Positions 43,982 to 64,000 of a DNA stretch of 64,000 nt are shown here, one piece after another. Source of the DNA: Desulfuromonadales bacterium (GTDB taxonomy: Bacteria; Desulfobacterota; Desulfuromonadia; Geobacterales; Pseudopelobacteraceae). A program made the position numbers and the translations under genes. The notes beneath the pieces were generated by a model. The model ran no database searches, had not been told where the DNA came from, and worked only from the letters and a program-made list of their open reading frames with translations. The stretch lies in assembly GCA_013349325.1 (NCBI GenBank), contig DUZX01000003.1, positions 1-64,000 on the forward strand. The letters are read 5' to 3'. How positions within the stretch are numbered: the first letter of the stretch is position 1; each line of letters begins with the position of its first letter.

Positions 43982-45292
43982 TCAGGCCGAAACGGGCTGA
44001 TCGGCTGCAGTTTCAGTAATAACGGCATGATCAAGCAGGAATGCAATAGCCTTGTCTTCTTTTATTTCAGAAATGACTGAATTTTTAGCATTCTGGTTCG
44101 ATGCGTAGTAGGCTTTGATGCGTTCAAGCATCTCTTCGTTGCCGGCGGCTGTTTTTTCATAGTGCGCGTTCAGGTCTTCATCAGTGACGCTGATGTTTTC
44201 CTTCTCAACAAGTGCCATCAAAAGCAGGCCACCACGTACTTTGTCTGCTGCGTCATCGCGAAAACGTGCCCGGAAACTTTCCACGTCCAGTCCCATTGAT
44301 TCGATGGTCATCTTCTGGCTTTTGAGACGGTTCTTGAGATTTTCAAACATGTAATCGAGCTGGCGTTTTACCATCGACTCAGGGACGTCGGTTGGATTCT
44401 TCTGGATCAACGCCTGAATGACACGCTCTTTGCGGTCATTTTCGATACGCTCTTCTTCATGTTTCTGATGGTATTCAGCCATCTTGCCTTTCAATTCTTC
44501 AAGAGTATCAAAATCGCCGAGTTGCTGGGCAAAGTCATCATCAAGTTCCGGCAACTCCTTACGTTTGATCTCGTTGACCGTTACTTTGAAAACTCCACGT
44601 TTGGCCGGGGCGTCGCTGTCGCTGTCGTTAACAGGCAGATCCAGGGTGAACTGCTTGGTCTCACCGGATTTCATGCCGATCAAGTGGTCTTCAAAGCCTG
44701 GGATCAGCTGATGTGATCCAACTTCCACCGTAGCATCCTTGGCTGAGTTGGTTTCCTCAGGAGATCCTTCGACAGTAACCGTGTAATCAACTGATACGGT
44801 GTGGCCGCTTTCAATGGAACTCTCTTCGCTCAGCGGAATGAGCATCGCCATATTTTCCTGCATGCGTTTCAGTTCAGCCTCAATTTCTTCAGGTTTTGAG
44901 ATATACGGCTCCTGCGTAATAGCCAGGCCGGTGTATTCCTGAAGCAGAATCTGCGGCATTACTTCTACCAGCGCACTGTATTTGAATGGAACACCCTGCT
45001 GGAGGATATCGCTTTCAATGGTCGGAGAGTCGATCGGCTCAACCTTATGATCGGAAAGGGCCTTGTAGAGTGTCTGCTCGTACAGGCGTCGCATGACATC
45101 GTCACGCATAGCGTCAGCGTAGGTACGTTTAATAAGCTGCATCGGCGCTTTTCCGGGACGAAACCCCTGGAGCTTAGCCTTTTTCTGGATGATGGAATAT
45201 GCTTTTTCGATTTCCTGGTCTACTCGTTCGGCGGGGATTTCAAAGCTGATTTTTTTTTGAACCGGGCTGATGTCTTCTACATTAACCTGCAT
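43982..45292 (-). CDS. tig: Trigger factor (ribosome-associated chaperone)
   Basis: The 436-residue peptidyl-prolyl isomerase/chaperone binds at the ribosome exit. The ribosome-binding signature reads [16 protein letters not shown]. The middle FKBP-like domain spans about 150-245, and the C-terminal chaperone helices follow. The start [14 protein letters not shown] is chosen for fit and the AGAGGA upstream; the frame is open further up, running towards the tRNA-Leu 3' end. It heads the tig-clpP-clpX operon. Confidence 0.95.
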
Positions 45293-49548: not shown

Positions 49549-50136
49549 ATGGTCAAAATATCGATGGCATTATTTTTTAGTGCAGTGACAGTTGCACTTC
49601 TCTGTCTTTCCGGGTGTGGCAGTGACGGTGATGCAGATGACGGAGATCATAACAGTATTCCTGCCAAGGCGGTTATTGCATTCAAAACCAGCCTGCCGGT
49701 CGGCTCGCCTGAAAAAATCGGCAGCGTCGATCTGGTTTTTGAACTTCCTACCGGAGTAACGCTGGCAACTCCCGCAGGCACCATACCGACCGGAGCAAAC
49801 GGTCTCTTGAAACTTTCCGGTGAAGCGGCCCGATTCGCGGCGCTGCCAACCGCGACTACTTCAATCATTGCAAATTACACTCCTGCAACAGCAACAAGCA
49901 ACGCCACGGTAAGCTTGAGTGCCATCGCCACCCGGACCGATAGCGGTCAGGGCATGGATGCCGGCGTATTTGCCACCCTGACCTGTGACATCACTCCCGG
50001 CGTGACCGTGACGACCGCAAATTTCAAACCTCTCAGCAGTGCGCTGATCGGTAACGCAACCGGAACCAAGTTGTTCGACACTTTGGGTGGCATTACCGGT
50101 CCCGCCTCAGCAAGCTACAACGTTACCCTGCAATAA
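49549..50136 (+). CDS. Lipoprotein with a cohesin-like domain
   Basis: A lipoprotein signal (hydrophobic stretch, then LSGCGSDG) is followed by a short acidic linker and one beta-sandwich domain of about 150 residues. Strands such as SVDLVFELPTGVTL and MDAGVFATLTCDI resemble cohesin domains. The next gene encodes a protein whose N-terminus looks like dockerin, the partner of cohesin. The start at 49549 has GAGAGG upstream. An earlier in-frame ATG at 49519 is possible. Cohesin identity is by pattern and needs a profile test. Confidence 0.65.
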   Translation: MVKISMALFFSAVTVALLCLSGCGSDGDADDGDHNSIPAKAVIAFKTSLPVGSPEKIGSVDLVFELPTGVTLATPAGTIPTGANGLLKLSGEAARFAALPTATTSIIANYTPATATSNATVSLSAIATRTDSGQGMDAGVFATLTCDITPGVTVTTANFKPLSSALIGNATGTKLFDTLGGITGPASASYNVTLQ

Positions 50137-50173: not shown

Positions 50174-53100
50174 ATGAAACCACGCACGTTCACCTCCCTC
50201 GTTTTTCGATTTTTCATAGTTTCAGCTCTCATGATCCAGTTGTCCCTGCAGACACTCTGCTTTGCGCTGCCGGACGGAGATGTTGACGGAGACGGTCGCG
50301 TTACCGGAGTTGATGCCTTGCTGATTCTGCGGGTGTTTGTTGGGCTCGATCCAATCACGCCGCGTATGGCGGAGCATGGCATTATCACTGAGATAGGTTC
50401 GGACGGCAAACCTCACCCGAGCGGTAAGCTCACTCTTGCGGACGCGCTGCTGGTGCTGGAGAAGGCCACTCGAATCATTACGTGGGACACCGATACAAAC
50501 ACACCCAACCAGCCGCCGACCGCCAATGCCGGCAGTAATCAGTCTATCACCCTCAATGCCGGTGAAACCTCACGCCTTGTTACTCTGAGCGGCAGCGGCA
50601 GTGACCCGGACGGCAGCATCGCCTCGTACCTCTGGAGCGGCAGTCCATCGCCCTCTCCAGCCACAGCAGCAACGGCTACCGTCACTCTTAAAGCCGGCAC
50701 GTACACGTTCACCCTGATAACCACCGACAACCAGGGTGCCCAGAGCACGCCTGCGACGGTTACAATAACCGTCAATGCAGCAACACCACCCGTCAACCAG
50801 GCACCAACCGTAACCATCGTTCCGGTGCCCGCAGTAACGCTTCCGGCGTCAGCAACCTTGAGTGCTACCGTGACAGATGACGGCAAGATTCAGGCAACGC
50901 CTGCACTTGCCTGGTCCAAAATCAGTGGTCCCGGTACAGTCACATTTGGATCTGCAAACTCTTCCAATACAACCGCCAGCTTCAGTATAGACGGCAGCTA
51001 CGTAGTGCAGTTGAGTGCTTATGATGGTGAACTGACGAAAACTGAAACCGTCACGATAACCGTCAATGCTGCGGCAGCACCTGTCAACCAGCCGCCGATC
51101 GCCAACGCGGGCAGCAATCAGTCTATCACCCTCAATGCCGGTGAAACTTCACGTCTTGTTACCCTGAGCGGCAGCGGCAGTGACCCGGACGGCAGCATCA
51201 CCTCGTACCTCTGGAGCGGCAGTCCATCGCCCTCGCCAGCCACAGCAGCAACGGCTACCGTCACCCTCAGAGCCGGTACATACACGTTCACCCTGATAAC
51301 CGCCGACAATCAGGGTGCCCAGAGTGCCCCTTCAACCGTCACGATAGCCGTTAATCCTGCAACACCACCCGTCAACCAGGCACCGACCGTAACGATTTCT
51401 CCGGTGCCGGTCGTAACGCTTCCGGCGTCAGCAACGTTGAGCGCAACCGTGACAGATGACGGCAAAACCCAAGCAGCACCTACACTCACCTGGTCCAAGG
51501 TCAGTGGTCCCGGCACCATCACGTTTGGTAGCGTCGATACCTCCAGCACCACTGTCAGTTTCAGTGCGGAGGGGAGCTATGTTGTACAGTTGAGTGCGTT
51601 TGATGGGGAGCTTACAAGCAGCGCCACGGTATCGGTAACTGTTACGGCAGCAGTACCGCCAGCAGTTAACCAAGCTCCGACCGTAACGATTTCTCCGGTG
51701 CCAGTCGTAACGCTTCCGGCGTCAGCAACGTTGAGCGCTACGGTAACAGATGACGGCAAGATTCAGGTCACGCCTTCGCTCACCTGGTCCAAAGTCAGTG
51801 GACCCGGTACCATTACATTTGGAGCCGTCAATGCCTCCAGCACAACTGCCAGCTTTAGTGCCGACGGCAGCTATATTGTGCAGTTGAGTGCTTATGATGG
51901 TGAACTGACGAAAACTGAAACCGTGACGATAACCGTCAATGCTGCCATTCCCGTCAACCAGCCGCCAACCGTAACGATTTCTCCGGTGCCAGCCGTAACG
52001 CTTCCGGCGTCAGCAACTTTGAGCGCTACGGTAACAGATGACGGCAAGATTCAGGTCACGCCTACACTCACCTGGTCCACCGTCAGTGGCCCAGGGACAG
52101 TCATATTCGGATCCCCGAGCTCTTCCAAAACCACCGCCAGCTTTAGTGTAGACGGCAGCTATATTCTGCAGTTGAGTGCCTACGATGGCGAACTGACTAA
52201 AACCGAAACCGTGACGGTCACCGTCAACCCCGCTCCGGTCCTGGCACCGGTCATCACCACCCAGTCACTGCCGGTCGGCAAGGTCGGGGTCAGTTACGTA
52301 GCCAGCGTCAGTGCCAGCGATCCGGCTGGTGCCGCACTCACGTTTACCCTTGATCAAGGACCTGCCGGTATGACCATCAATGCCGGTAACGGGAGCCTGA
52401 ACTGGCTGCCCGGAGTCAGTGATATCGGCACTGCCCAGGTAGCCGTTTCGGTACGCAACCTTAAAGGCAAGAGTGACCGCAGATCCTTTGTCGTTACGGT
52501 TCCCGATTCAATTGTCCCGTCGATCAATTTTTCCGCTCCACCTGTTCAACTGCTCAAGGATTCAACTACAACTATTACAGCCGCTGCATCAGACAACATA
52601 GCGGTCAAAGCGGTCACCTTCTTTGTAGATGGAGTGCAGAAAGCCGTTTCAACCTCCGCCCCGTATCAGTTCGACCTGCTCTCAACCCAGCCGGCAGGTA
52701 CCGTTATGGTCGTACGCGCCGTTGCCGAAGACACCAGCGGCAACACGGCCATCGCTGAAACCGGCATAACGGTGTTTGTCGTGAGTGCCAGCAACCCCAA
52801 CAACCAGGCTCCGCAGTTGGGAGTTCTAGATCTCAGCTATACCGTGGCTGAAGGTGGTACGCTGACTATTCCCGTCACCGCCACTGATCCGGATACCGGC
52901 GACACGGTGACGCTCAGCGCCGCCACCACCCCGCCATCACTCGCTCACTCCTCTTTTAGCGGCGGCAGCTTCAGCTTCTCGCCCGACTACACCCAGGCCG
53001 GCAGTTACAGCGTCACCTTCCGGGCCGTTGACCCCTACGGCCTGACTGATCAGAAAACGGTTGCGATTATCGTCACAGATGTCAATCGGCCGCCGGTCAT

Positions 53101-56100
53101 TACTACCACAGCACTTTTAAGCGGTCGCGTCGATTACCCCTACAGCGCCACCATCACCGCCACCGATCCGGACAGTGATCCGCTGAGTTTCAGCCTCACT
53201 CAGGGGCCGACCGGCATGACTATCAATACTACCAGCGGTATTCTCAGCTGGAAACCGACCATTACTGATATCGGTAGCTACACCTTTACCATTGCGGTCA
53301 GTGACGGCAAAGGGGGCAGCGACTCCAGGCAGTTCACGCTGCAGATACCTGACACCATCCCGCCGACTGTCACTCTCTCGGCGCCCAAAGAAGCGATTCC
53401 GGGGGCCCGTTTTACCGTTGTTGCGACGGCCACGGATAACAAGGCGGTAACTCTGGTCACCATCGCCGTAGCCGGGCAAGCCCCTGTTGATCTGACAGCA
53501 GCGCCATTTGAACATCTGGTGACCTTACCTGATACTCTGGCCGTCGGCGCAACTGTTATCATAACCGCCACTGCCAAAGATGCCGCTGCTAACAGCAGCA
53601 GCGCATCGGCAACGGTAAAGATCATTGCCATCCCTGATACCGTCAAACCGACGGTCACGCTGAGCGCACCGACCACCGCCTCGCCCGGCAGCAGCATCAC
53701 GCTCAGCGCTGTAGCAACAGATAATCAGGGGGTTGCCAAGCTCGACTTCTCAGTCGGAGGAGTTGCTATTGGAACGGTCGATCCGGCTGATCCGACCGTC
53801 AGGTATCTTGTGCCAGCCAGCGTAGCGCTAGATTCAACTCTTACCTTCTCCGTAACCGCCACTGACTTCAGCGGCAACAGTGCCAGCGCCCAGGCAACAT
53901 CCACCGTAGTCGCAGCTCCGGTTATTCCTGACACCACTCCGCCGACGGTCAGCGTATCTGCACCCGCTTCGATTGCCATCGGTTCACAGCTGCCGCTCAC
54001 CATTTCGGCCAGTGATGATAAAGGTGTTGCCAGCGTGGAACTGCTGCTGGCCCATAACCGGGTTGCCACGTTTACAAGCTCCGTCAGCCAGACCATTAAT
54101 CTGCCGCTGCCCGACGCTGTCACTGCCGGCATGGAACTGGTGGTAGAGCTGAAAGCAACGGATCAGTCAGGCAACCAGGCCACAGCCGCTACCACGGTAA
54201 GCGTCGTGACACGCGGACAGGGGGTTCTGACCGGAGCGGTCTATGACGATTCCACCGGTCTGCCGGTACCGGCTGCGACCGTCACCCTGGCACTCAGCGG
54301 ACAAACAGAGCAGAGTGCCACCACCGACAGCCATGGCCGCTATGCCTTTGTTGCCGATGAAGGCAGCGGCGGTCTGACCGTGACTGCGTCAGGTTACAAT
54401 CGGGTCGATCGCGCGCCTGTTGCAACATTTACCGGATCCGGTCACCGCGTCGCAGACGCCCGTCTGACACCGTTACCGACAGCTGGTACGCCAATTTCGG
54501 CGGTACTCGGCGGAGCACTCAGCGCACCACTCACACCTGAGAAAGCCGGTGTCACCTCAGCCATGAAAGAAGCCGGAATTATCACGGTAACCTCCGGCAC
54601 AGCTATCGTTACCCTGCCATCCGGTGCCGTAACCGCCGACCAGACCTTTAGCCTCATCCAGATCGGTGCTCAGGGTCTGCAGGGCACTCTGCCGGCTGGT
54701 TGGTCACCACTGGCGGCCATTGATCTGATTCCGCACGGCATAACCTTTGTCGCCCCGGTCAGTGCCTCTGTGCCGAACCTGTTAGGCCTGCCGGTGACAG
54801 CCATCGTGGTTGCTGCCCGTTGGGACGAGTCCAGCCACAGTTGGCTGACGGTCGGGCCTGCCAGCATATCCGCCGATGGTGCAACGCTCAGCAGCACACT
54901 TTCCAGCAGCGGCCAGCACGTCTTTTTGATTGCCGATGCCGGTATTGGCGCCCCGGCGAGCCCGGTCTCCGGTGCTCCTGTGACAGCAGCGACAAACCTC
55001 CCGCTCGGTCTTGATCTTCAGGCCCGTATAACCCCTCAGCCCAAGCTGATCCTGTACAAAGCGGGAGTCAGCTCCTCCGTCGGCAGCCGGGTTGCCGCAG
55101 CGACGCCACTCACCAGCGGCTCTACGGTCTGGTCCACTATTGCCGAAGATTACAGTTTTTACTCCGGTGACCGCATTATCGGCGAACCCTACGCCCAGGA
55201 CATCGTTCTCTACAGCTTCGGCCTTCCGTCCGGAGCCCTGCTGGCCGATTATCCGGTTGCCCCCGGTCTCAATTTGTCCGGTCAGGTGCTGGAGAAAGGG
55301 GTCATCAGCGTTACCACCAGCATCCCACCCGTCAACGCCGATCTGGTAACCGTGGTCGGCCCGCAGGGGGGGGCTGTCAGTGTTGCCAGTGGCGAGGCGC
55401 TGATCGTTCCGGCTGCAGCCGTCAACCGGGTCGTTCCGATCAGCATCAAGCCGTTCGATCTGTCGGCCAGTGGACTAACCCTGCCGCCCGGCTTCACGCT
55501 GCTGGGCGGGGTCACCTTCAGCATACCCGGCACCAGCCTACAGCTTCCGGCCGCTCTTTCAATTCCCCTGCCGCTACCGTTCACCGCCACCGGTGACATT
55601 CTGCTGGTCAGGCCGGTCGTCATTGGCGGCTCAACCCGCTTTGCCGTCATCGGTCGCGGCACGGTCAATTCCGGGCGACTGCTTTCCACTCAGGAAGTAC
55701 CTGGCAGCACAACGGTACTCTTTCCCGGTATTACCACCGAAGGGAGCGTTTTTTTCCTGCAGACAGCCGCCACACTCGGTTATGCCGGAGGCAGCGTCAG
55801 CGGCACTGACAGCGCACCCTTCAGCGGAGCGCTGATCAGTAGTGACACGTTGCCGCTGGTTGCTCTCTCAGGCACTAACGGTGGCTATGTCACTGTCGTT
55901 GCCCCAGGGGCCTTCACGCTGACCGCTCTCGATACGATCAGGATGGACAAAGGCAGCGCCACCGGAAACGTCACCGCCAGCGCTTTTGCAGCCGTTGACC
56001 TGTCACTGAAGATCGACCCGCCGACAATTACCGGCGTGACCCCGATTACTACTGCGACAAATGTAGCCCTGAGCGATCCGGTTGTCATCAGGCTCTCCGA

Positions 56101-57088
56101 GCCGGTTGTCGCTGCCGGACCGGCCAACCTCCAGGTTTCTAGCTCCGCAGGTATTTTCAATGGTTCAGTGGAGCTGAGCGTTGATGGCATGACCGTTACC
56201 TTCCGCCATACCGATCCGTTTGCCTCCAACACACTCTACACGGTCACAGTCAGCGGCCTGATCGACCGTTCCGGCACAGCCATGACGGCACCGTTTACCG
56301 CCAGCTTTACCAGTCTCAACACCGCTCCGCCGGTTGCGCCGCCGGCGGCGAACATATCGGCCACCATTCCCGGTACCGATGGCAAAACCACGGTCAGCGG
56401 CACCCAGGGGAGCGCCGGTCTGCATGACACGGTGACGGTCGTCAACCTGGCGACCGGAGCCCGTAATCCGGCTCTCGTTGATCCAAACGGCAGCTTCAGC
56501 GTCATATTCACGGCAACGGTTAAAGATAAGCTGCAGCTGGAGATCACCAGTCCGGCCGGGATCACGACGACAGTCGCTTTGCCGAGGTTCAAACAGACCA
56601 ACAGCGACAGCAGTGTTTCAGAAGTGGTTGGAAATGAGGGGGGTCGAGTCCTCGGACCGGCAGGAGTCGCTGTTGACGTACCTTCTGGCGCCTTCCCTGA
56701 TGGGGCGGTTATTACTCTGAAGCCGGTTACGGAAGCTGATTTTCCGTTTCAGTTATCGCCGGTCCACAAGCAGAATTTCAGCTACACCGGCGGTGTTAAA
56801 CTCTTTATCGAGGGGAAAGAGCCTCTTTCGTACCTTAATATGAGTATCCCGACCTCCGGTGGCGAGACGCTCGATGATCAGTGGGTGCTTACACAGGCGG
56901 TCGATGCGGGGGGGGCAGCCGTCTCTGCATGCTGTCGACACTGCACGGGTTATCGATGGGCGGATTGCCACGTCATCACCCCCCTGTCCCGGTGTCACCG
57001 GGAATGGCGTCTATGGTTTCCTGCGCTCAGCGCGACCACTTGGTGTGCTGTACGGCGAAATGACTTTGGAGCGTTCCTTGCCGCCTGA
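50174..57088 (+). CDS. Giant secreted protein, 5' part: dockerin-like, PKD and Ig-like repeats (frame broken at G8 tract)
   Basis: The frame gives 2304 residues, but the natural protein should continue into the frame ending at 63137 (about 4320 residues). The order is: signal peptide 1-31; dockerin-like calcium repeats (GDVDGDGRVTGVDALL and GKLTLADALLVLEKA, about 33-105); PKD-like repeats (about 112-690, two of type A and four of type B); cadherin/Ig-like domains (690-1345); a carboxypeptidase-regulatory-like domain (1350-1430); a long beta-rich region; and an SbsA-type Ig-like domain (about 1948-2053). After the G8 tract at 56908 the last 58 codons are out of frame. It is probably an exported surface protein. 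Confidence 0.82.
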   Translation: MKPRTFTSLVFRFFIVSALMIQLSLQTLCFALPDGDVDGDGRVTGVDALLILRVFVGLDPITPRMAEHGIITEIGSDGKPHPSGKLTLADALLVLEKATRIITWDTDTNTPNQPPTANAGSNQSITLNAGETSRLVTLSGSGSDPDGSIASYLWSGSPSPSPATAATATVTLKAGTYTFTLITTDNQGAQSTPATVTITVNAATPPVNQAPTVTIVPVPAVTLPASATLSATVTDDGKIQATPALAWSKISGPGTVTFGSANSSNTTASFSIDGSYVVQLSAYDGELTKTETVTITVNAAAAPVNQPPIANAGSNQSITLNAGETSRLVTLSGSGSDPDGSITSYLWSGSPSPSPATAATATVTLRAGTYTFTLITADNQGAQSAPSTVTIAVNPATPPVNQAPTVTISPVPVVTLPASATLSATVTDDGKTQAAPTLTWSKVSGPGTITFGSVDTSSTTVSFSAEGSYVVQLSAFDGELTSSATVSVTVTAAVPPAVNQAPTVTISPVPVVTLPASATLSATVTDDGKIQVTPSLTWSKVSGPGTITFGAVNASSTTASFSADGSYIVQLSAYDGELTKTETVTITVNAAIPVNQPPTVTISPVPAVTLPASATLSATVTDDGKIQVTPTLTWSTVSGPGTVIFGSPSSSKTTASFSVDGSYILQLSAYDGELTKTETVTVTVNPAPVLAPVITTQSLPVGKVGVSYVASVSASDPAGAALTFTLDQGPAGMTINAGNGSLNWLPGVSDIGTAQVAVSVRNLKGKSDRRSFVVTVPDSIVPSINFSAPPVQLLKDSTTTITAAASDNIAVKAVTFFVDGVQKAVSTSAPYQFDLLSTQPAGTVMVVRAVAEDTSGNTAIAETGITVFVVSASNPNNQAPQLGVLDLSYTVAEGGTLTIPVTATDPDTGDTVTLSAATTPPSLAHSSFSGGSFSFSPDYTQAGSYSVTFRAVDPYGLTDQKTVAIIVTDVNRPPVITTTALLSGRVDYPYSATITATDPDSDPLSFSLTQGPTGMTINTTSGILSWKPTITDIGSYTFTIAVSDGKGGSDSRQFTLQIPDTIPPTVTLSAPKEAIPGARFTVVATATDNKAVTLVTIAVAGQAPVDLTAAPFEHLVTLPDTLAVGATVIITATAKDAAANSSSASATVKIIAIPDTVKPTVTLSAPTTASPGSSITLSAVATDNQGVAKLDFSVGGVAIGTVDPADPTVRYLVPASVALDSTLTFSVTATDFSGNSASAQATSTVVAAPVIPDTTPPTVSVSAPASIAIGSQLPLTISASDDKGVASVELLLAHNRVATFTSSVSQTINLPLPDAVTAGMELVVELKATDQSGNQATAATTVSVVTRGQGVLTGAVYDDSTGLPVPAATVTLALSGQTEQSATTDSHGRYAFVADEGSGGLTVTASGYNRVDRAPVATFTGSGHRVADARLTPLPTAGTPISAVLGGALSAPLTPEKAGVTSAMKEAGIITVTSGTAIVTLPSGAVTADQTFSLIQIGAQGLQGTLPAGWSPLAAIDLIPHGITFVAPVSASVPNLLGLPVTAIVVAARWDESSHSWLTVGPASISADGATLSSTLSSSGQHVFLIADAGIGAPASPVSGAPVTAATNLPLGLDLQARITPQPKLILYKAGVSSSVGSRVAAATPLTSGSTVWSTIAEDYSFYSGDRIIGEPYAQDIVLYSFGLPSGALLADYPVAPGLNLSGQVLEKGVISVTTSIPPVNADLVTVVGPQGGAVSVASGEALIVPAAAVNRVVPISIKPFDLSASGLTLPPGFTLLGGVTFSIPGTSLQLPAALSIPLPLPFTATGDILLVRPVVIGGSTRFAVIGRGTVNSGRLLSTQEVPGSTTVLFPGITTEGSVFFLQTAATLGYAGGSVSGTDSAPFSGALISSDTLPLVALSGTNGGYVTVVAPGAFTLTALDTIRMDKGSATGNVTASAFAAVDLSLKIDPPTITGVTPITTATNVALSDPVVIRLSEPVVAAGPANLQVSSSAGIFNGSVELSVDGMTVTFRHTDPFASNTLYTVTVSGLIDRSGTAMTAPFTASFTSLNTAPPVAPPAANISATIPGTDGKTTVSGTQGSAGLHDTVTVVNLATGARNPALVDPNGSFSVIFTATVKDKLQLEITSPAGITTTVALPRFKQTNSDSSVSEVVGNEGGRVLGPAGVAVDVPSGAFPDGAVITLKPVTEADFPFQLSPVHKQNFSYTGGVKLFIEGKEPLSYLNMSIPTSGGETLDDQWVLTQAVDAGGAAVSACCRHCTGYRWADCHVITPLSRCHREWRLWFPALSATTWCAVRRNDFGAFLAA
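50507..52233 (+). repeat. Repeated PKD-domain DNA inside the giant gene
   Basis: A 579-bp unit (module A plus module B) starting at 50507 is repeated at 51086 with high identity. Module B alone is repeated again at 51668 and 51956, giving B at 50796, 51375, 51668 and 51956. The high nucleotide identity suggests recent expansion or recombination, so repeat number may differ between strains and assembly here may be error-prone. Confidence 0.85.
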
Positions 57089-60000
57089 AATTTTTTATCC
57101 GTTCCTTATTCCCGCCCCCGGCATACTCCAGATTGACTCGGTATCTCTCCCGACCGGTGTCCTTGATATAATCGGTTCATTGTGGGGGGCGTATGGTACC
57201 GGTACGACGGTCGAGCCGTATGCCGATCTGGCCGGTAATATTCTGGCCGGCATGCCGAAACCGATCTGCCTGCCACTCATGAGCGGCAAAGTAACGGTAA
57301 CCAACAATCGTCTTTCTCTCAATTACTCATCCACAGGGTTTGTCGTTGCCGACCGGGAGATTCTTGTCAGGAACAACACAAGCGGAGGAAAAACCAGCTT
57401 CTACCGGCCATTCCCATCGCTGTTGAAAGTTGACGGGAAAGCCAGTGATTCCCTGACTGCCGAGGTAGTCGATGTTGCCGGAAACCGCCGGCCACTCACC
57501 GTCACCCTACAGCCGCTCTCGTTTGTCCGGGTGGATGTGTTCGACACTAATCTGAATCCGGGCGACTCCAGAATTGTCATCAAAAATCTATCTAACGGCA
57601 ACAGTTGGAGTTCTCAGCTGAGCGGAACTGTTCATCCGTTCGGCACTATCAGCGCTCTGATTGAGGGAACTACGGGCGATAGCTACTCCGTTGAAGTAAC
57701 TGATGCAACCGGAGCCGGGCGATCAGTTACGCCGGCGATATCGTCCTACAATGCCGGCTCGGGAAACCTTACGCTCCGGGCCACCATTGGAGCGATTGAC
57801 CCAACAAAAGCTGAGATTGACTCCTTTAACGCTCATGTACCCGCCGATCAACAGATTACCGGCGCGGGCGTTACCAAAGTGGTTTTAGGTGTGCTTGGGA
57901 CAAATACATTTTCTGAACTGACTGTCTTTGATGCATCATCATCGTCAACCACAACTCTTGCCAATGGCGCCTTTATCTTCGCCTTTAACGGCAATTTTGA
58001 AGACAATTATTACGTTACCGCTGTCTATGAGGATGGTAAGCGGGAATCCACCAAAATATACAGTTTCAATATCATAGTGCGAGACCCGACCACCGGTGGG
58101 ACTGTGAAGGAGATCCGTGGTCAGGTGCCGCCCCGTGGTGTGCCACTGCAGCTTGATGTCAATGCCGCCAGCTCATCCCAAAGCCAGTTGATGATGGACA
58201 GCTCCGGCTTTGTCAATATTGATGTTCAAGCACCGCTGACATTCTCGTTCAGCGAGCCGTTGAATCAGCAGTCAGTGATAACAAACATGCTGTTGTTCGA
58301 CATGGCAACCATGCAACCGGTATCCGGACATTGGCTGCTCTCCAACGTTAACCGCACGGCCACATTCATTGGCGACGTACCGCTGCAGATGGGCAAGGAG
58401 TACCGGGTCGCCTTCAGTGGCGTAACCACAATCGCCGGTCGTCCTCTGGCCACCAGCAGTCTGTTACTGCGGACTTACAAGCCGCTCAAGGTGAGCAGCA
58501 TTGTTATTGAACCGCCGCACTTGAATACCGGTTTCAGCAGCACCGCTCCCACCACGTATTCATATCCGTTCAAAGACGTTGAGTATCACCGCAAGGGTTC
58601 GGGGAGCACGCAGAAAACCATACTCACAGCCGCGACAGGAAATGCCAGCGGGTACGGCTATCACCTTTTTGATGTGACAAATCCGCGGATACCGTTTGAA
58701 ACCGGACACACCGCCGCCGGTAAAACACCCCGGCATCTGAAGCTGTTCCCGAAGATCCAGCATCCGACACTGTTCGACCAGATTTATGGGGATGTTCCCC
58801 TGATCGGGCAACCGACCACCATGTCCTGTTGGGCAACGTCAGCCGCCATGATGGTCGCCTGGCGTGATCAGGTATTTGTTGACCCGTCCCAGATAGCCGC
58901 AGAAGCGGGATACTGGAACCAGTATCAGGATAATAGCGGGTTGCCGTTTGACAACCAGGCTTTCTGGAATCGTTACGGAATGGTTATTGAACCGCCTCAG
59001 ACCTATTCGGTTGCCAGCCTTAACAATATTCTGGATACCTACGGCGCCTTTGTCGTCATGTCCCGCGTTCCGTCAGGTCATGTTCGGGTTGTGTACGGCA
59101 TCAGCGGCGACGGTACGGCAGAGGGGACAAATCTCTATATTAACGATCCCTGGGACGTTAATAAGGATCAATACACTCCGCCGAATGCCGGCAGTCAGTA
59201 CACGGAAACATTCCTGGAATACATCACCAATCTGGAAAAAACCGCCAAAACCTTCTTTGGCGATCCGGCAGCCATGCGGGATCGCTGTAATGAAGGAAGC
59301 GCCTTTTACTGCGCCCTCATTGCCGATCCGGCAAAAGTGATACTGGCGCAGCAGTGCGCTGCGGGAAATGAAGCGTCCTGCACCGCAGCAGGGCTGCCAG
59401 GTGCAGGGGCGATGTATATCGCCCATTTCCGCACCAAACCTCCTCTCGCAGTAGCGTCACACAATATTTATCCCGGCTTGAGGCTGCGCAGTAAAGATAT
59501 TAACGAACTAGCCGGTTGCTCGGATCATGTCTCAGCCGTAGGGAGTGATCTGGTATTTGAGGGGCAACTTCTTTCCAGTGTCATTTACAATTCGTTCGGC
59601 AGTGCCGTAAATTTCCTGGATATTACCAATCCGGACAAACCGTGCCGCCTGGGTGGCAAAACATTGACCAGGAACCCGGAAACGCTTCCGGCTCCCACCT
59701 CCGGTGATCATTCAGCTGATGGCACGGTCAAGCAGTACGGCTTTGCACGTGGTGTGGATATCCTCTCCCATGCAAAAGGATATGCCGTTTATTCTGCCCT
59801 TGGTGAACTTGGCATCATGCCGGTGGATACTTGCAGGAATATCACCGATATGCCCATCATCGATACGGGAATACACACGTTGGATAACTGCTTGAATCTC
59901 CCTGGTACTCCGCCACCATCACCCCTTCCGGCGAATTACTTTATTCGACAAGTCGAAGGAATTTTCCAGGGTGACTATGTTGATCTGGCAGTAGTTGGCA

Positions 60001-63000
60001 ATGATGTTTTAGCGTTAAATAATAACTTCGGTGGTCTGCCGACGTTGGATGCTTTCGATGCCAACATGGGCACGATCAGTTCTGTCGGTTTCGACGTTGG
60101 CACTCCGAGCAAGGTGCATCAATTTGCCGTCGCCCGTAACGTTGCTGTCGACCGCAATGGCAACGGCACGATTGAAGCGGATGAAAACTTTGACTTTGCC
60201 TTCATCGGTGGCTCCAACGGCATCACCATTGTCAATATCCGCGATCACTCCAACATGTCGGTTGTCGGCACTATCCCCATGCCACGCACCCCTTCCATTC
60301 CAGGGATAATGCGCAAGATGGCGGTCAGTCAGGATGGTAAAACCCTCTTTGCCGGCGGAGCTTCCGGCAGCGGCGGAGACGCGCTCTATCTGGTTGATGT
60401 CAGCGAACCGTTCCGCACCGGCCTGATCGATCAGAACGGTGATCTTCGGGATGACCGGATTCGCTTCACAATTCCGTATCCGCTCGGAGTTGAAGGTTTC
60501 AGGATCGATGACAAACGTGGTCTTCTCTATGTCGGAAATTCCCTGTCCCTCGATATCTGGGCCTTTACCCGTGCCGGTGCTTCTCTGGGTAACCATGCGC
60601 CGGTTGCCGATGCCGGACCGGCCCAGACCGTTGATCAGGAGCAGACCGTTACGCTGGATGGAAGCGCCAGCAGCGACCCTGATGGCGATCACCTGATCTA
60701 CCGCTGGAAACAGACAGCCGGCACGCCGGTGACGTTATCCGACGCCGGTGGAGTTAAACCGACATTTACCGCACCGAAGAAAGAAGACACACTGACATTC
60801 CAGCTAATCGTCAGTGACGGCCTGCTTGATAGCCCTCCGGCGACTGTCACGATAAAAATCAACAAAAAGGATCAGCTGCGCCTCTCGCCGGTGCTGGTGC
60901 CGATTGCGATAGTTCCTGGTTCGAAACAGCTCACCGTCGAACTTGAACATGGCGACACCGGGCTGATTGATAATGTTACGGCCGCACCGGAAACGAAATA
61001 TGAATGGTTCGGCAACGGGCTGATTGCCGAAATAAACGGAATTTCCCTCGATGATTTCATTTTTGACCGGGTCAACCAGGTGCTAGTTAATCTGGGATAT
61101 CCGGCCATTCCGAAAAAAATAGCCACCGTATCGGTCTCTCCGTCAGGACTGCTCTCGGTCAACAATGCAGGACTCCAGGTCATCCGAGCCACATACGGAA
61201 CCCAGAAACTGAAATCAAATCCGACCATAGTACTTGCTGGGATCAAGCTGGATAAAATTGATCTGGCACCGCTGTCGGTTGTTTCATCCGCCCTCCAGGC
61301 CGCCTTCAAGGATATGAAGAACCCCTGGCTCATATTGACGTCCGACGTGACCGGCAACCCGTTCATCACCAGCAACGGTGCCGTCTATCTGAAAGATGCG
61401 ACCTTTGATCTCTTTGGGGGGGTCGCTTCCGTGGGGATGTCCGACCTGCTCAACGTGCTCAAACCGGTCATCCAGGACAGCGTAACCGTACTGGCTGCAG
61501 AAACGGGTCCGTTGGCACCGTTACTCGGCTGGGCAGCACAAAAGGCTTTCGGTATTACGGTACAGTATGCCGGAACTCAGGCGCTTACCCTGGATTCTGC
61601 CACGCCAACAGTTGCCACTGTTACCAACGATGTCGGTTACAAAGGCATCGTCAGCAGCCAGCCGCTCCCCGGCCTGACCTCCATACGGGGCACTCTGGAT
61701 CTTCTGGAATATGGCAAGGCAAGCAGCAATGTAATGACGTGGGTACTTCCGAAAATTGATTCCGTTAAAATTGAACCGCAGGTGATGTGCATCAATTCTG
61801 CGTCACCGGCGACTCCCGGACCAAAAGTGCGCACCTTTGCCCATGTCACTGCCGGCAGTACCATACCCATTCCCCTCAAAGGCAAGTTCCAGAGTTATGC
61901 AGAAGCCATAGACAGGACGCTCCCTGGCGGACTGGCCGAATGGGGAAGCCTGACTATCAACAAAACGTTCACGGTGAATGAACCGGCTCCAAATTTCAAA
62001 CTGCAGTTACAGGGGAATATCACTGCTACCTGTGCGGCGGCAGGAAGTGATGATTCCGGCTGTACAATTCAGTTCAATTCCCTCGGTCTCGGCTTCCACG
62101 CCCCGACTCTGCTGGATACCTACACCGTGGGCCTGCCTCCCGAGTGCAATGTGCTGACCGGATGTAACCCGACGCTGGTGACAACCGCAGCGGATACCAA
62201 CGGCGTTGATACACATATCGTACATAGTGGCGTAAACGGTAAAACAACTCTGGACAGTAAAGTCGCTATTCCCGGAATGGGCGAACTCAACGATCCGAAG
62301 GGGAAGATTGTCGTCAGCAACGATCCGCTCTGCGTGATCAAGAATACGGTTCCAGAGGATCTTGTGGCTGTGAACCCGGGAGACCCGATAACCTACAGTC
62401 TCACGGTTGTTAACAATACTGCGGCCAGTTATTTTGATGTCTCGGTTGTGGATGAACTGCGTTATTGCGGTGCGGTGCAACGCCTGAAAACGCTCCACTT
62501 CGGAGCAATGGAAAGCGGCGCATATTCTCAATTAACCTATACTGAAGTAGCACCTTCGACAGCAACGGTGCTGACCAATTCCGGTATCAGCATCGATACA
62601 TTGCCGGGAGGATCAATAACCGGCATCCAGCAGTTTGCTCAGGCCATGACATCGGTCTGTTTACCACCCAACTGTCCGACCACGGTAACGAACATCATAC
62701 CCCCTTGGCTTTGCGCTCCACTGCCGATGATCAACGAAGTGATTGTCGAGCCTCAGGCAGGCAGCGTGGATCAGTTTATCGAGTTCTATACCAACACCGG
62801 TACCGCGGATGAACTGCGTAACTGGACTCTGGAGTATACCGACAAACTCGGTACAACGAAGAAGCTCACCCTTGTCCCTTCAGATCTCACCATGCATGGT
62901 CGCTACGCGGTTCTTAAAAATCCTCCTGGCGGGATACTTGCTACCAGTGTTCTGACGCTGCGCGACACGGTTCACACGATTAATGACAAAGTTGATCTCG

Positions 63001-63137
63001 GAGCTATTCAGGCGGTAACCGGTTTTGCAACCGGGGTAAGCGACGAAGCGCTGGCCCGTATTCCGGATTCAATTAATACACTCAATATAACGGACTTCAA
63101 GCGTCGGCCTTCGACAATCGGGTCAATCAACCAATAA
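56859..63137 (+). CDS. Giant secreted protein, 3' part: papain-like peptidase, propeller-like region, PKD, lamin-tail domain
   Basis: This frame (2092 codons from the first possible start) is the continuation of the upstream frame; real homology begins after the G8 tract. Domains in order: beta-rich region and an SbsA-like Ig domain; a C39/papain-like peptidase with Cys codon 58827 (MSCWATSAAMM), His codon 59079 (SGHVRVV) and INDPWD; LVIVD-like repeats (about 59450-60580); a PKD domain (60598-60870); a DUF11-like segment; and a C-terminal lamin-tail domain (about 62725-63120). No signal peptide or good ribosome site lies at its own start, so alone it would not be exported. Confidence 0.8.
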   Translation: MARRSMISGCLHRRSMRGGQPSLHAVDTARVIDGRIATSSPPCPGVTGNGVYGFLRSARPLGVLYGEMTLERSLPPEIFYPFLIPAPGILQIDSVSLPTGVLDIIGSLWGAYGTGTTVEPYADLAGNILAGMPKPICLPLMSGKVTVTNNRLSLNYSSTGFVVADREILVRNNTSGGKTSFYRPFPSLLKVDGKASDSLTAEVVDVAGNRRPLTVTLQPLSFVRVDVFDTNLNPGDSRIVIKNLSNGNSWSSQLSGTVHPFGTISALIEGTTGDSYSVEVTDATGAGRSVTPAISSYNAGSGNLTLRATIGAIDPTKAEIDSFNAHVPADQQITGAGVTKVVLGVLGTNTFSELTVFDASSSSTTTLANGAFIFAFNGNFEDNYYVTAVYEDGKRESTKIYSFNIIVRDPTTGGTVKEIRGQVPPRGVPLQLDVNAASSSQSQLMMDSSGFVNIDVQAPLTFSFSEPLNQQSVITNMLLFDMATMQPVSGHWLLSNVNRTATFIGDVPLQMGKEYRVAFSGVTTIAGRPLATSSLLLRTYKPLKVSSIVIEPPHLNTGFSSTAPTTYSYPFKDVEYHRKGSGSTQKTILTAATGNASGYGYHLFDVTNPRIPFETGHTAAGKTPRHLKLFPKIQHPTLFDQIYGDVPLIGQPTTMSCWATSAAMMVAWRDQVFVDPSQIAAEAGYWNQYQDNSGLPFDNQAFWNRYGMVIEPPQTYSVASLNNILDTYGAFVVMSRVPSGHVRVVYGISGDGTAEGTNLYINDPWDVNKDQYTPPNAGSQYTETFLEYITNLEKTAKTFFGDPAAMRDRCNEGSAFYCALIADPAKVILAQQCAAGNEASCTAAGLPGAGAMYIAHFRTKPPLAVASHNIYPGLRLRSKDINELAGCSDHVSAVGSDLVFEGQLLSSVIYNSFGSAVNFLDITNPDKPCRLGGKTLTRNPETLPAPTSGDHSADGTVKQYGFARGVDILSHAKGYAVYSALGELGIMPVDTCRNITDMPIIDTGIHTLDNCLNLPGTPPPSPLPANYFIRQVEGIFQGDYVDLAVVGNDVLALNNNFGGLPTLDAFDANMGTISSVGFDVGTPSKVHQFAVARNVAVDRNGNGTIEADENFDFAFIGGSNGITIVNIRDHSNMSVVGTIPMPRTPSIPGIMRKMAVSQDGKTLFAGGASGSGGDALYLVDVSEPFRTGLIDQNGDLRDDRIRFTIPYPLGVEGFRIDDKRGLLYVGNSLSLDIWAFTRAGASLGNHAPVADAGPAQTVDQEQTVTLDGSASSDPDGDHLIYRWKQTAGTPVTLSDAGGVKPTFTAPKKEDTLTFQLIVSDGLLDSPPATVTIKINKKDQLRLSPVLVPIAIVPGSKQLTVELEHGDTGLIDNVTAAPETKYEWFGNGLIAEINGISLDDFIFDRVNQVLVNLGYPAIPKKIATVSVSPSGLLSVNNAGLQVIRATYGTQKLKSNPTIVLAGIKLDKIDLAPLSVVSSALQAAFKDMKNPWLILTSDVTGNPFITSNGAVYLKDATFDLFGGVASVGMSDLLNVLKPVIQDSVTVLAAETGPLAPLLGWAAQKAFGITVQYAGTQALTLDSATPTVATVTNDVGYKGIVSSQPLPGLTSIRGTLDLLEYGKASSNVMTWVLPKIDSVKIEPQVMCINSASPATPGPKVRTFAHVTAGSTIPIPLKGKFQSYAEAIDRTLPGGLAEWGSLTINKTFTVNEPAPNFKLQLQGNITATCAAAGSDDSGCTIQFNSLGLGFHAPTLLDTYTVGLPPECNVLTGCNPTLVTTAADTNGVDTHIVHSGVNGKTTLDSKVAIPGMGELNDPKGKIVVSNDPLCVIKNTVPEDLVAVNPGDPITYSLTVVNNTAASYFDVSVVDELRYCGAVQRLKTLHFGAMESGAYSQLTYTEVAPSTATVLTNSGISIDTLPGGSITGIQQFAQAMTSVCLPPNCPTTVTNIIPPWLCAPLPMINEVIVEPQAGSVDQFIEFYTNTGTADELRNWTLEYTDKLGTTKKLTLVPSDLTMHGRYAVLKNPPGGILATSVLTLRDTVHTINDKVDLGAIQAVTGFATGVSDEALARIPDSINTLNITDFKRRPSTIGSINQ
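56908..56915 (+). repeat. G8 homopolymer that breaks the giant gene
   Basis: Eight G in a row sit in codons for Ala-Gly-Gly. With seven (or ten) G, the upstream frame would read directly into the frame ending at 63137, giving one 4320-residue protein. The downstream reading GQPSLHAVDTARVIDGRI matches the composition of the rest. It is either a slippage (phase-variation) site or a one-base sequencing error. Confidence 0.8.
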
Positions 63138-63164: not shown

Positions 63165-64000
63165 ATGAATTACGGGAAATTATCGATGAATATAAAAACT
63201 CTGATCCGCACTCTGGCGCTGCTCATTGTTGTAACCGGTACGGCAGGAACCGCCCAGGCCTACGAGGGGCGTTTCCTGGCTCATGAGGATATCATCCTCT
63301 ACGGCATGGGGCTCAAGGTGGAGCCGGCCCGGCAGGTGGTACCGAAAAACATCGCTACTATTGTCAGCAGTTATACGCAGGTGCCGACGCTCCCCAACGC
63401 CGAGATTCCGCCACTGGCGGCTGATGCGCTGGTCAAGGGAACTCTGCGTGGTCCGGGATTGGAAACACCGTTGGAACTGACTGCCAGAGCCAATACCCCC
63501 TTCAACATCCCGCCGCTGACCGTGCCGGGTATCTACTCCCTGGACAACATCCGCCTGGAGAGTGGCGGCGAGGTTCTCTTGCGCGGCACCCCCGAGAGCG
63601 TCACCATCGAGATCATTGAAAAACTGCTGGTTTCCCAGATTACCGCCCGCCCTTTGACCGCCCAGGAGATCAAGGACAAGGGTATTGTCTTCGATAAAAC
63701 CAACTTCCAGGCCTACAATTTTACCGCCGCCTTTGCCATCGGCAGCGGTGATCCGGTCAAGATCAACATGCCGGTAATTCTGCCGAATCTGGCCGGAGCT
63801 ACTGATGTCAATGTCAGTGAGGCAGGAATTGGCTCCACGATTCCTGAACCGCAGCTCAAAGATGTACGCACGATCATCCCGGATTCTCTCAAACTGGCCC
63901 AGACGAAGGTTCCCAACCTGAGTGTAAAAAGTTTCAGTCTCAAGGCGCTTGACTACAAGGGCAACTCGTTCGACGTACCCCCTATTCCGGGGGTGATCGT
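63165..64000 (+). CDS. Exported protein, partial (runs off the end)
   Basis: An open frame of more than 278 codons starts MNYGKLSMNIKTLIRTLALL with AGGTGG upstream, 28 bp after the giant gene. A signal peptide (to about residue 31, TAQAYEG) is present. The next part is beta-rich and proline-rich (LRGPGLETPLELTA, PFNIPPLTVPGIYSLDNIRL) without a motif that I recognise. It probably belongs with the giant protein as a partner at the cell surface. Repeat or propeller content cannot be judged before the rest is seen. Confidence 0.72.
   Translation, partial: MNYGKLSMNIKTLIRTLALLIVVTGTAGTAQAYEGRFLAHEDIILYGMGLKVEPARQVVPKNIATIVSSYTQVPTLPNAEIPPLAADALVKGTLRGPGLETPLELTARANTPFNIPPLTVPGIYSLDNIRLESGGEVLLRGTPESVTIEIIEKLLVSQITARPLTAQEIKDKGIVFDKTNFQAYNFTAAFAIGSGDPVKINMPVILPNLAGATDVNVSEAGIGSTIPEPQLKDVRTIIPDSLKLAQTKVPNLSVKSFSLKALDYKGNSFDVPPIPGVI

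Follow-up and report, generated by a model that had tools for sequence, protein, structure and literature searches.

A one-base frame break at a G8 run in a giant secreted-protein gene of a Geobacterales draft genome: probably a miscounted base or a recent slip, and not a conserved switch

Poly-G tracts and frameshifts in bacterial genomes

The described systems closest to the locus considered here are poly-G contingency loci, in which the length of a G run inside an open reading frame sets the frame of a surface or secreted protein. In Bifidobacterium, which is not a pathogen, pili are switched by slippage at poly-G (PMC9187656). The GeneTack survey assigned phase variation to clusters of frameshifted genes lying close to repeats, and non-clustered frameshifts confirmed by BLASTP were expected to be mostly sequencing errors (PMC3711429). 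Homopolymer tracts are also a known source of sequencing and bioinformatic artefacts (PMC8808543). No report of G-tract phase variation in Geobacter was found in the open-access literature searched.

The window analysed here is a stretch of 64,000 nucleotides (contig DUZX01000003.1, positions 1 to 64,000) from the draft assembly GCA_013349325.1 of an uncultured, Geobacter-like Desulfuromonadales bacterium. It contains a giant gene whose frame changes at a run of eight Gs, a tract that the earlier note had read as a possible phase-variation switch. The tract is no conserved regulatory switch; most likely it is an isolated, non-programmed difference of one base in the length of a G run.

Structure of the split gene

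The gene and its G runs are laid out as follows.

50174..57088, + strand: ORF1, N-terminal part of the giant secreted protein, frame 1 (ORF and Pfam)
55366..55373, + strand: second G8 run, in frame (residue-by-residue match to homologs across the run)
56908..56915, + strand: G8 run with the +1 frame change (sequence and homolog alignment)
56916..63137, + strand: remainder of the gene, frame 2, open over 6.2 kb (ORF and Pfam)
61416..61422, + strand: G7 run, frame 2 unbroken (sequence and translation)

The window letters give a run of exactly eight Gs at 56908-56915. ORF1 is open in frame 1 from a first GTG at 50087 to the stop at 57088, and its likely start is the ATG at 50174, from which it encodes 2,304 aa. 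ORF2 begins in frame 2 at 56844/56859, stays open until 63137 and overlaps ORF1 by 242 nt. In tblastn alignments of homologs to the window DNA, the coding frame shifts by +1 at the G8 run, and the final ~57 codons of ORF1, 3' of the run, are off-frame. With one base fewer in the tract, the ATG at 50174 would open a frame of 12,960 nt, or 4,320 residues, by coordinate arithmetic. The earlier note had located the break at this run and had joined the halves by removing one G. Its coordinates are exact, the homologs confirm that the frame changes at this run, and in relatives the halves are one protein; the further G8 and G7 runs that it reported within the gene were likewise found, both in frame.

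The second half of the gene is open over 6.2 kb without a further lesion and has a normal codon-position signal, which suggests that the break is either very recent or not real. No second lesion was found in the 13 kb of the gene, which is otherwise intact, with a break of a single base at the G8 run.

ORF1 has a signal-peptide-like start, called by eye alone, followed by a weak dockerin match, PKD, the Ig-like domains Big_9, Big_7 and He_PIG, and Big_5. The frame-2 part carries a Peptidase_C70-like domain at about 58791-59171, PKD, a DUF11-like repeat and a weak lamin-tail match. The PKD, Ig-like and Peptidase_C70 matches to Pfam are firm; the dockerin (Dockerin_1, E 9e-4) and lamin-tail (LTD, E 3e-4) domains listed in the earlier note reduce to sub-threshold matches. 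A papain-fold domain of Peptidase_C70/C39-like type lies at 58770-59240 of the window, and none was found by Pfam in the homologs of genomes G003 and G047, which suggests that the C-terminal part varies among family members.

Homologs in other Geobacterales genomes

Long homologous ORFs are unbroken in four other Geobacterales genomes, G003 (4,511 aa), G047 (3,841), G087 (3,643) and G004 (3,299). These giant Ig-like/PKD secreted proteins share with the window gene a common core of Ig-like/Big_5 repeats and differ from it in being unbroken ORFs; those of G003 and G047 also carry, like the window gene, a conserved motif just past the tract site. Four homologs, from G003, G047, G002 and G056 (the last two with ORFs that extend into contig ends), match frame 1 of the window 5' of the tract and frame 2 3' of it. 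In all four, VDTARVIDGRIATSSPPCPG or a similar motif directly follows the tract site, and in the window it is encoded in frame 2 only, where the VDTARVIDGR motif starts a few codons 3' of the tract. The alignment to G003 runs over the tract site without gaps, which points to a single-base difference.

None of the four homologs with alignments on either side of the tract site (G003, G047, G002, G056) has a G run there, and none of them is broken at it. Neither the tract nor the frame transition thus recurs in these orthologs, and no slippery site is conserved among homologs that have no run and no frame change.

Directly downstream of the split gene lies a second giant ORF, an open frame of 5,668 aa that occupies window positions 63165-64000 and continues to C3:80141. 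It contains an in-frame G9 at C3:76357, and the beginning of this ORF shares 67% identity with the gene that follows the homolog in G003.

G runs in the gene, the genome and the genus

Shuffling of synonymous codons gives an expectation of ~0.06 G runs of at least eight in the gene outside the tract (0.041 for ORF1, 0.016 for ORF2), against one observed, or two when the tract is counted. Ordinary genes show an excess as well, with 22 runs of exactly seven Gs seen against ~12 expected from synonymous shuffles, a figure that is the only one free of bias in a sample of genes picked around G8. The draft (3.58 Mb, 72 contigs) has G8 at 132 positions, and across the genus the number per genome ranges from 55 to 625. 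Given this excess in ordinary genes and the frequency of G8 in genome and genus, the tract as such stands out only slightly.

Frame breaks elsewhere in the genome

Coding G and C runs were examined with a coding-frame test, based on the coding signal within ORF overlaps, in a sample of 1.58 Mb (44% of the genome). Among clear coding G/C runs in this sample, the frame was broken at three of 28 of length 8, one of 70 of length 7 and none of six of length at least 9; 25 of the 28 runs of eight were in frame. The A/T runs of 7-8 bases in clear coding sequence gave no convincing break (~202 in frame, 1.58 Mb). In a first sample, the difference between G/C and A/T breaks had P = 0.04. Two relatives of the same genus, G014 and G021, had no break in 61 clear G/C runs of at least seven, a difference from this genome that was not significant in the first sample (4/77 vs 0/61, P = 0.13). 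A weak candidate for a break at a T7 run (L233:3270) was set aside, as its ORF is of doubtful reality. An A/T run of nine bases is also found in the window itself, at 45250-45258, within an intact trigger-factor gene.

Four genes of the 1.58 Mb sample are broken at runs of seven or eight Gs, all by +1: the giant gene, an HDOD-domain gene, a PAS histidine kinase gene and pdhB. The HDOD gene changes frame at a G8 run (L063:9416-9423; G000 C3:104415-104422), and its Pfam HDOD domain is divided between the two halves. Same-genus relatives have an open frame of ~280-300 aa for this gene, and in 42 named relatives the site holds at most about six Gs in a row; in 37 of these, by a simple count, the frame is open through it. 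In the histidine kinase, which has a receiver domain, the frame change at a G7 run (L065:16893-16899; G000 C4:82892-82898) falls between the HisKA and HATPase parts; alignments to many relatives stop at the tract, whereas the relatives' frames go on. The gene pdhB, for the E1 beta subunit of pyruvate dehydrogenase, changes frame at a G8 run (L069:9912-9919; G000 C5:79911-79918). This genome has no other close match to it, six relatives have the gene as an open frame, and here it stands in the order pdhA-pdhB-E2 (E1-alpha and E2 read by eye).

The broken genes are thus not concentrated in surface or interaction functions, and pdhB, the HDOD gene and the kinase are, to our knowledge, not typical of contingency loci. 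The breaks share a motif and a direction and fall without regard to gene function, which points to a shared cause that is not adaptive. A further apparent frame change was seen near a G5 in a pirin-like gene (identity by eye; L069:4063, minus strand, C5 about 74060); it is a shift of +2, unlike the G-run breaks, and does not lie at a long run.

Possible explanations of the break

An over-count of one G in the draft consensus, judged about as likely as not, is the single likeliest outcome. The pattern found here is that of a homopolymer error, with a break in a single genome, unbroken homologs and conserved genes of the same assembly also affected. Any over-count of G would not be general in this assembly, judging from the 25 of 28 coding G8 runs that are in frame. 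It is also possible, at a lower probability, that the extra G is real and arose by a recent random replication slip, unselected and preceding further decay; the restriction of the breaks to G/C runs would equally fit true polymerase slippage. With an erroneous consensus, the product would be a single giant, secreted protein of several domains; with a real slip, the sequenced cells would mainly make the N-terminal part of ~2,300 residues, which lacks the peptidase domain. The likelihoods given here for over-count, slip and phase variation, with the remainder falling to recoding or decay, are judgements and not calculated values.

Two further observations concern slippage and artefacts in this genome. 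A mutator strain was considered and set aside: MutS, a MutS2-like ORF and MutL are all open and full length, and the intact MutS and MutL argue against it. C runs of 16 and 12 bases stand near contig ends (L094:84-99 in C25 and L076:118-129 in C8) and may be sequencing artefacts; no link between the poly-G/C near the ends of C8 and C25 and a sequencing chemistry could be made.

Contingency tracts are found in genes such as those for giant secreted proteins. Slipped-strand phase variation, by which tract length would switch the giant surface protein of some cells in the population from a full-length to a truncated form and back, is the best surviving of the other explanations, though an unlikely one. 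It would account for an in-ORF G8 that sets the frame, for three G runs of 7-8 in one gene (above the synonymous-shuffle expectation), for the secreted, multidomain character of the product and for a downstream half without decay, and the Bifidobacterium pili provide a precedent. Against it, the four homologs aligned lack the tract and none is broken, the other G8-G9 runs of these giant genes lie in open frame, and like breaks occur in pdhB, the HDOD gene and the kinase; the switch proposed in the earlier note is not upheld on these grounds. Eight Gs are moreover at the short end of the range for poly-G contingency loci. A lineage with real, raised slippage at G7-G8, in which tract length would switch the giant surface protein together with some metabolic and signalling genes of an environmental, non-pathogenic bacterium, is likewise improbable.

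An established pseudogene, or two separate proteins made from the two frames, is very unlikely: the frame is broken and GTG and ATG codons stand near the start of ORF2, but no second lesion is seen in 13 kb, ORF2 would be without a signal peptide, and translation starting anew from the ATG near 57060 would drop the conserved VDTARVIDGR motif. Least probable is programmed recoding, with a short and a long product arising at the G run through +1 frameshifting by the ribosome or through slippage of RNA polymerase, as the 242 nt overlap with coding intact on either side might allow. Against it, the homologs have no slippery run at this position and encode the fusion directly, A or T runs are the usual setting in which slippage during transcription is described (PMC3711429), and the identical break in unrelated genes would be left unexplained.

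Comparison with known systems

The locus is mainly a caution: a G8 within the ORF of a surface gene invites reading as a switch, but the same breaks are found in housekeeping genes of the assembly. Were reads to show a mixture of lengths at the tract, the locus would offer a rare example of a giant secreted protein that varies in phase through a G tract in free-living relatives of Geobacter.

As in the poly-G contingency loci of Neisseria, Campylobacter and Helicobacter and of the Bifidobacterium sortase-dependent pili (PMC9187656), the frame of a surface or secreted protein is here set by a G run within the ORF. Unlike in those loci, the tract is not conserved in homologs, and the same breaks affect housekeeping genes of the assembly. 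If its tract lengths varied, the gene would behave as a poly-G contingency locus of the intragenic kind, of which the Bifidobacterium pili are the nearest analogue found outside pathogens (PMC9187656); it is not classed as a member. The GeneTack survey covered complete genomes, whereas the window gene comes from a 72-contig draft, and its singleton frameshifts (PMC3711429) resemble the window gene in that the break is present in one genome only and the homologs are unbroken.
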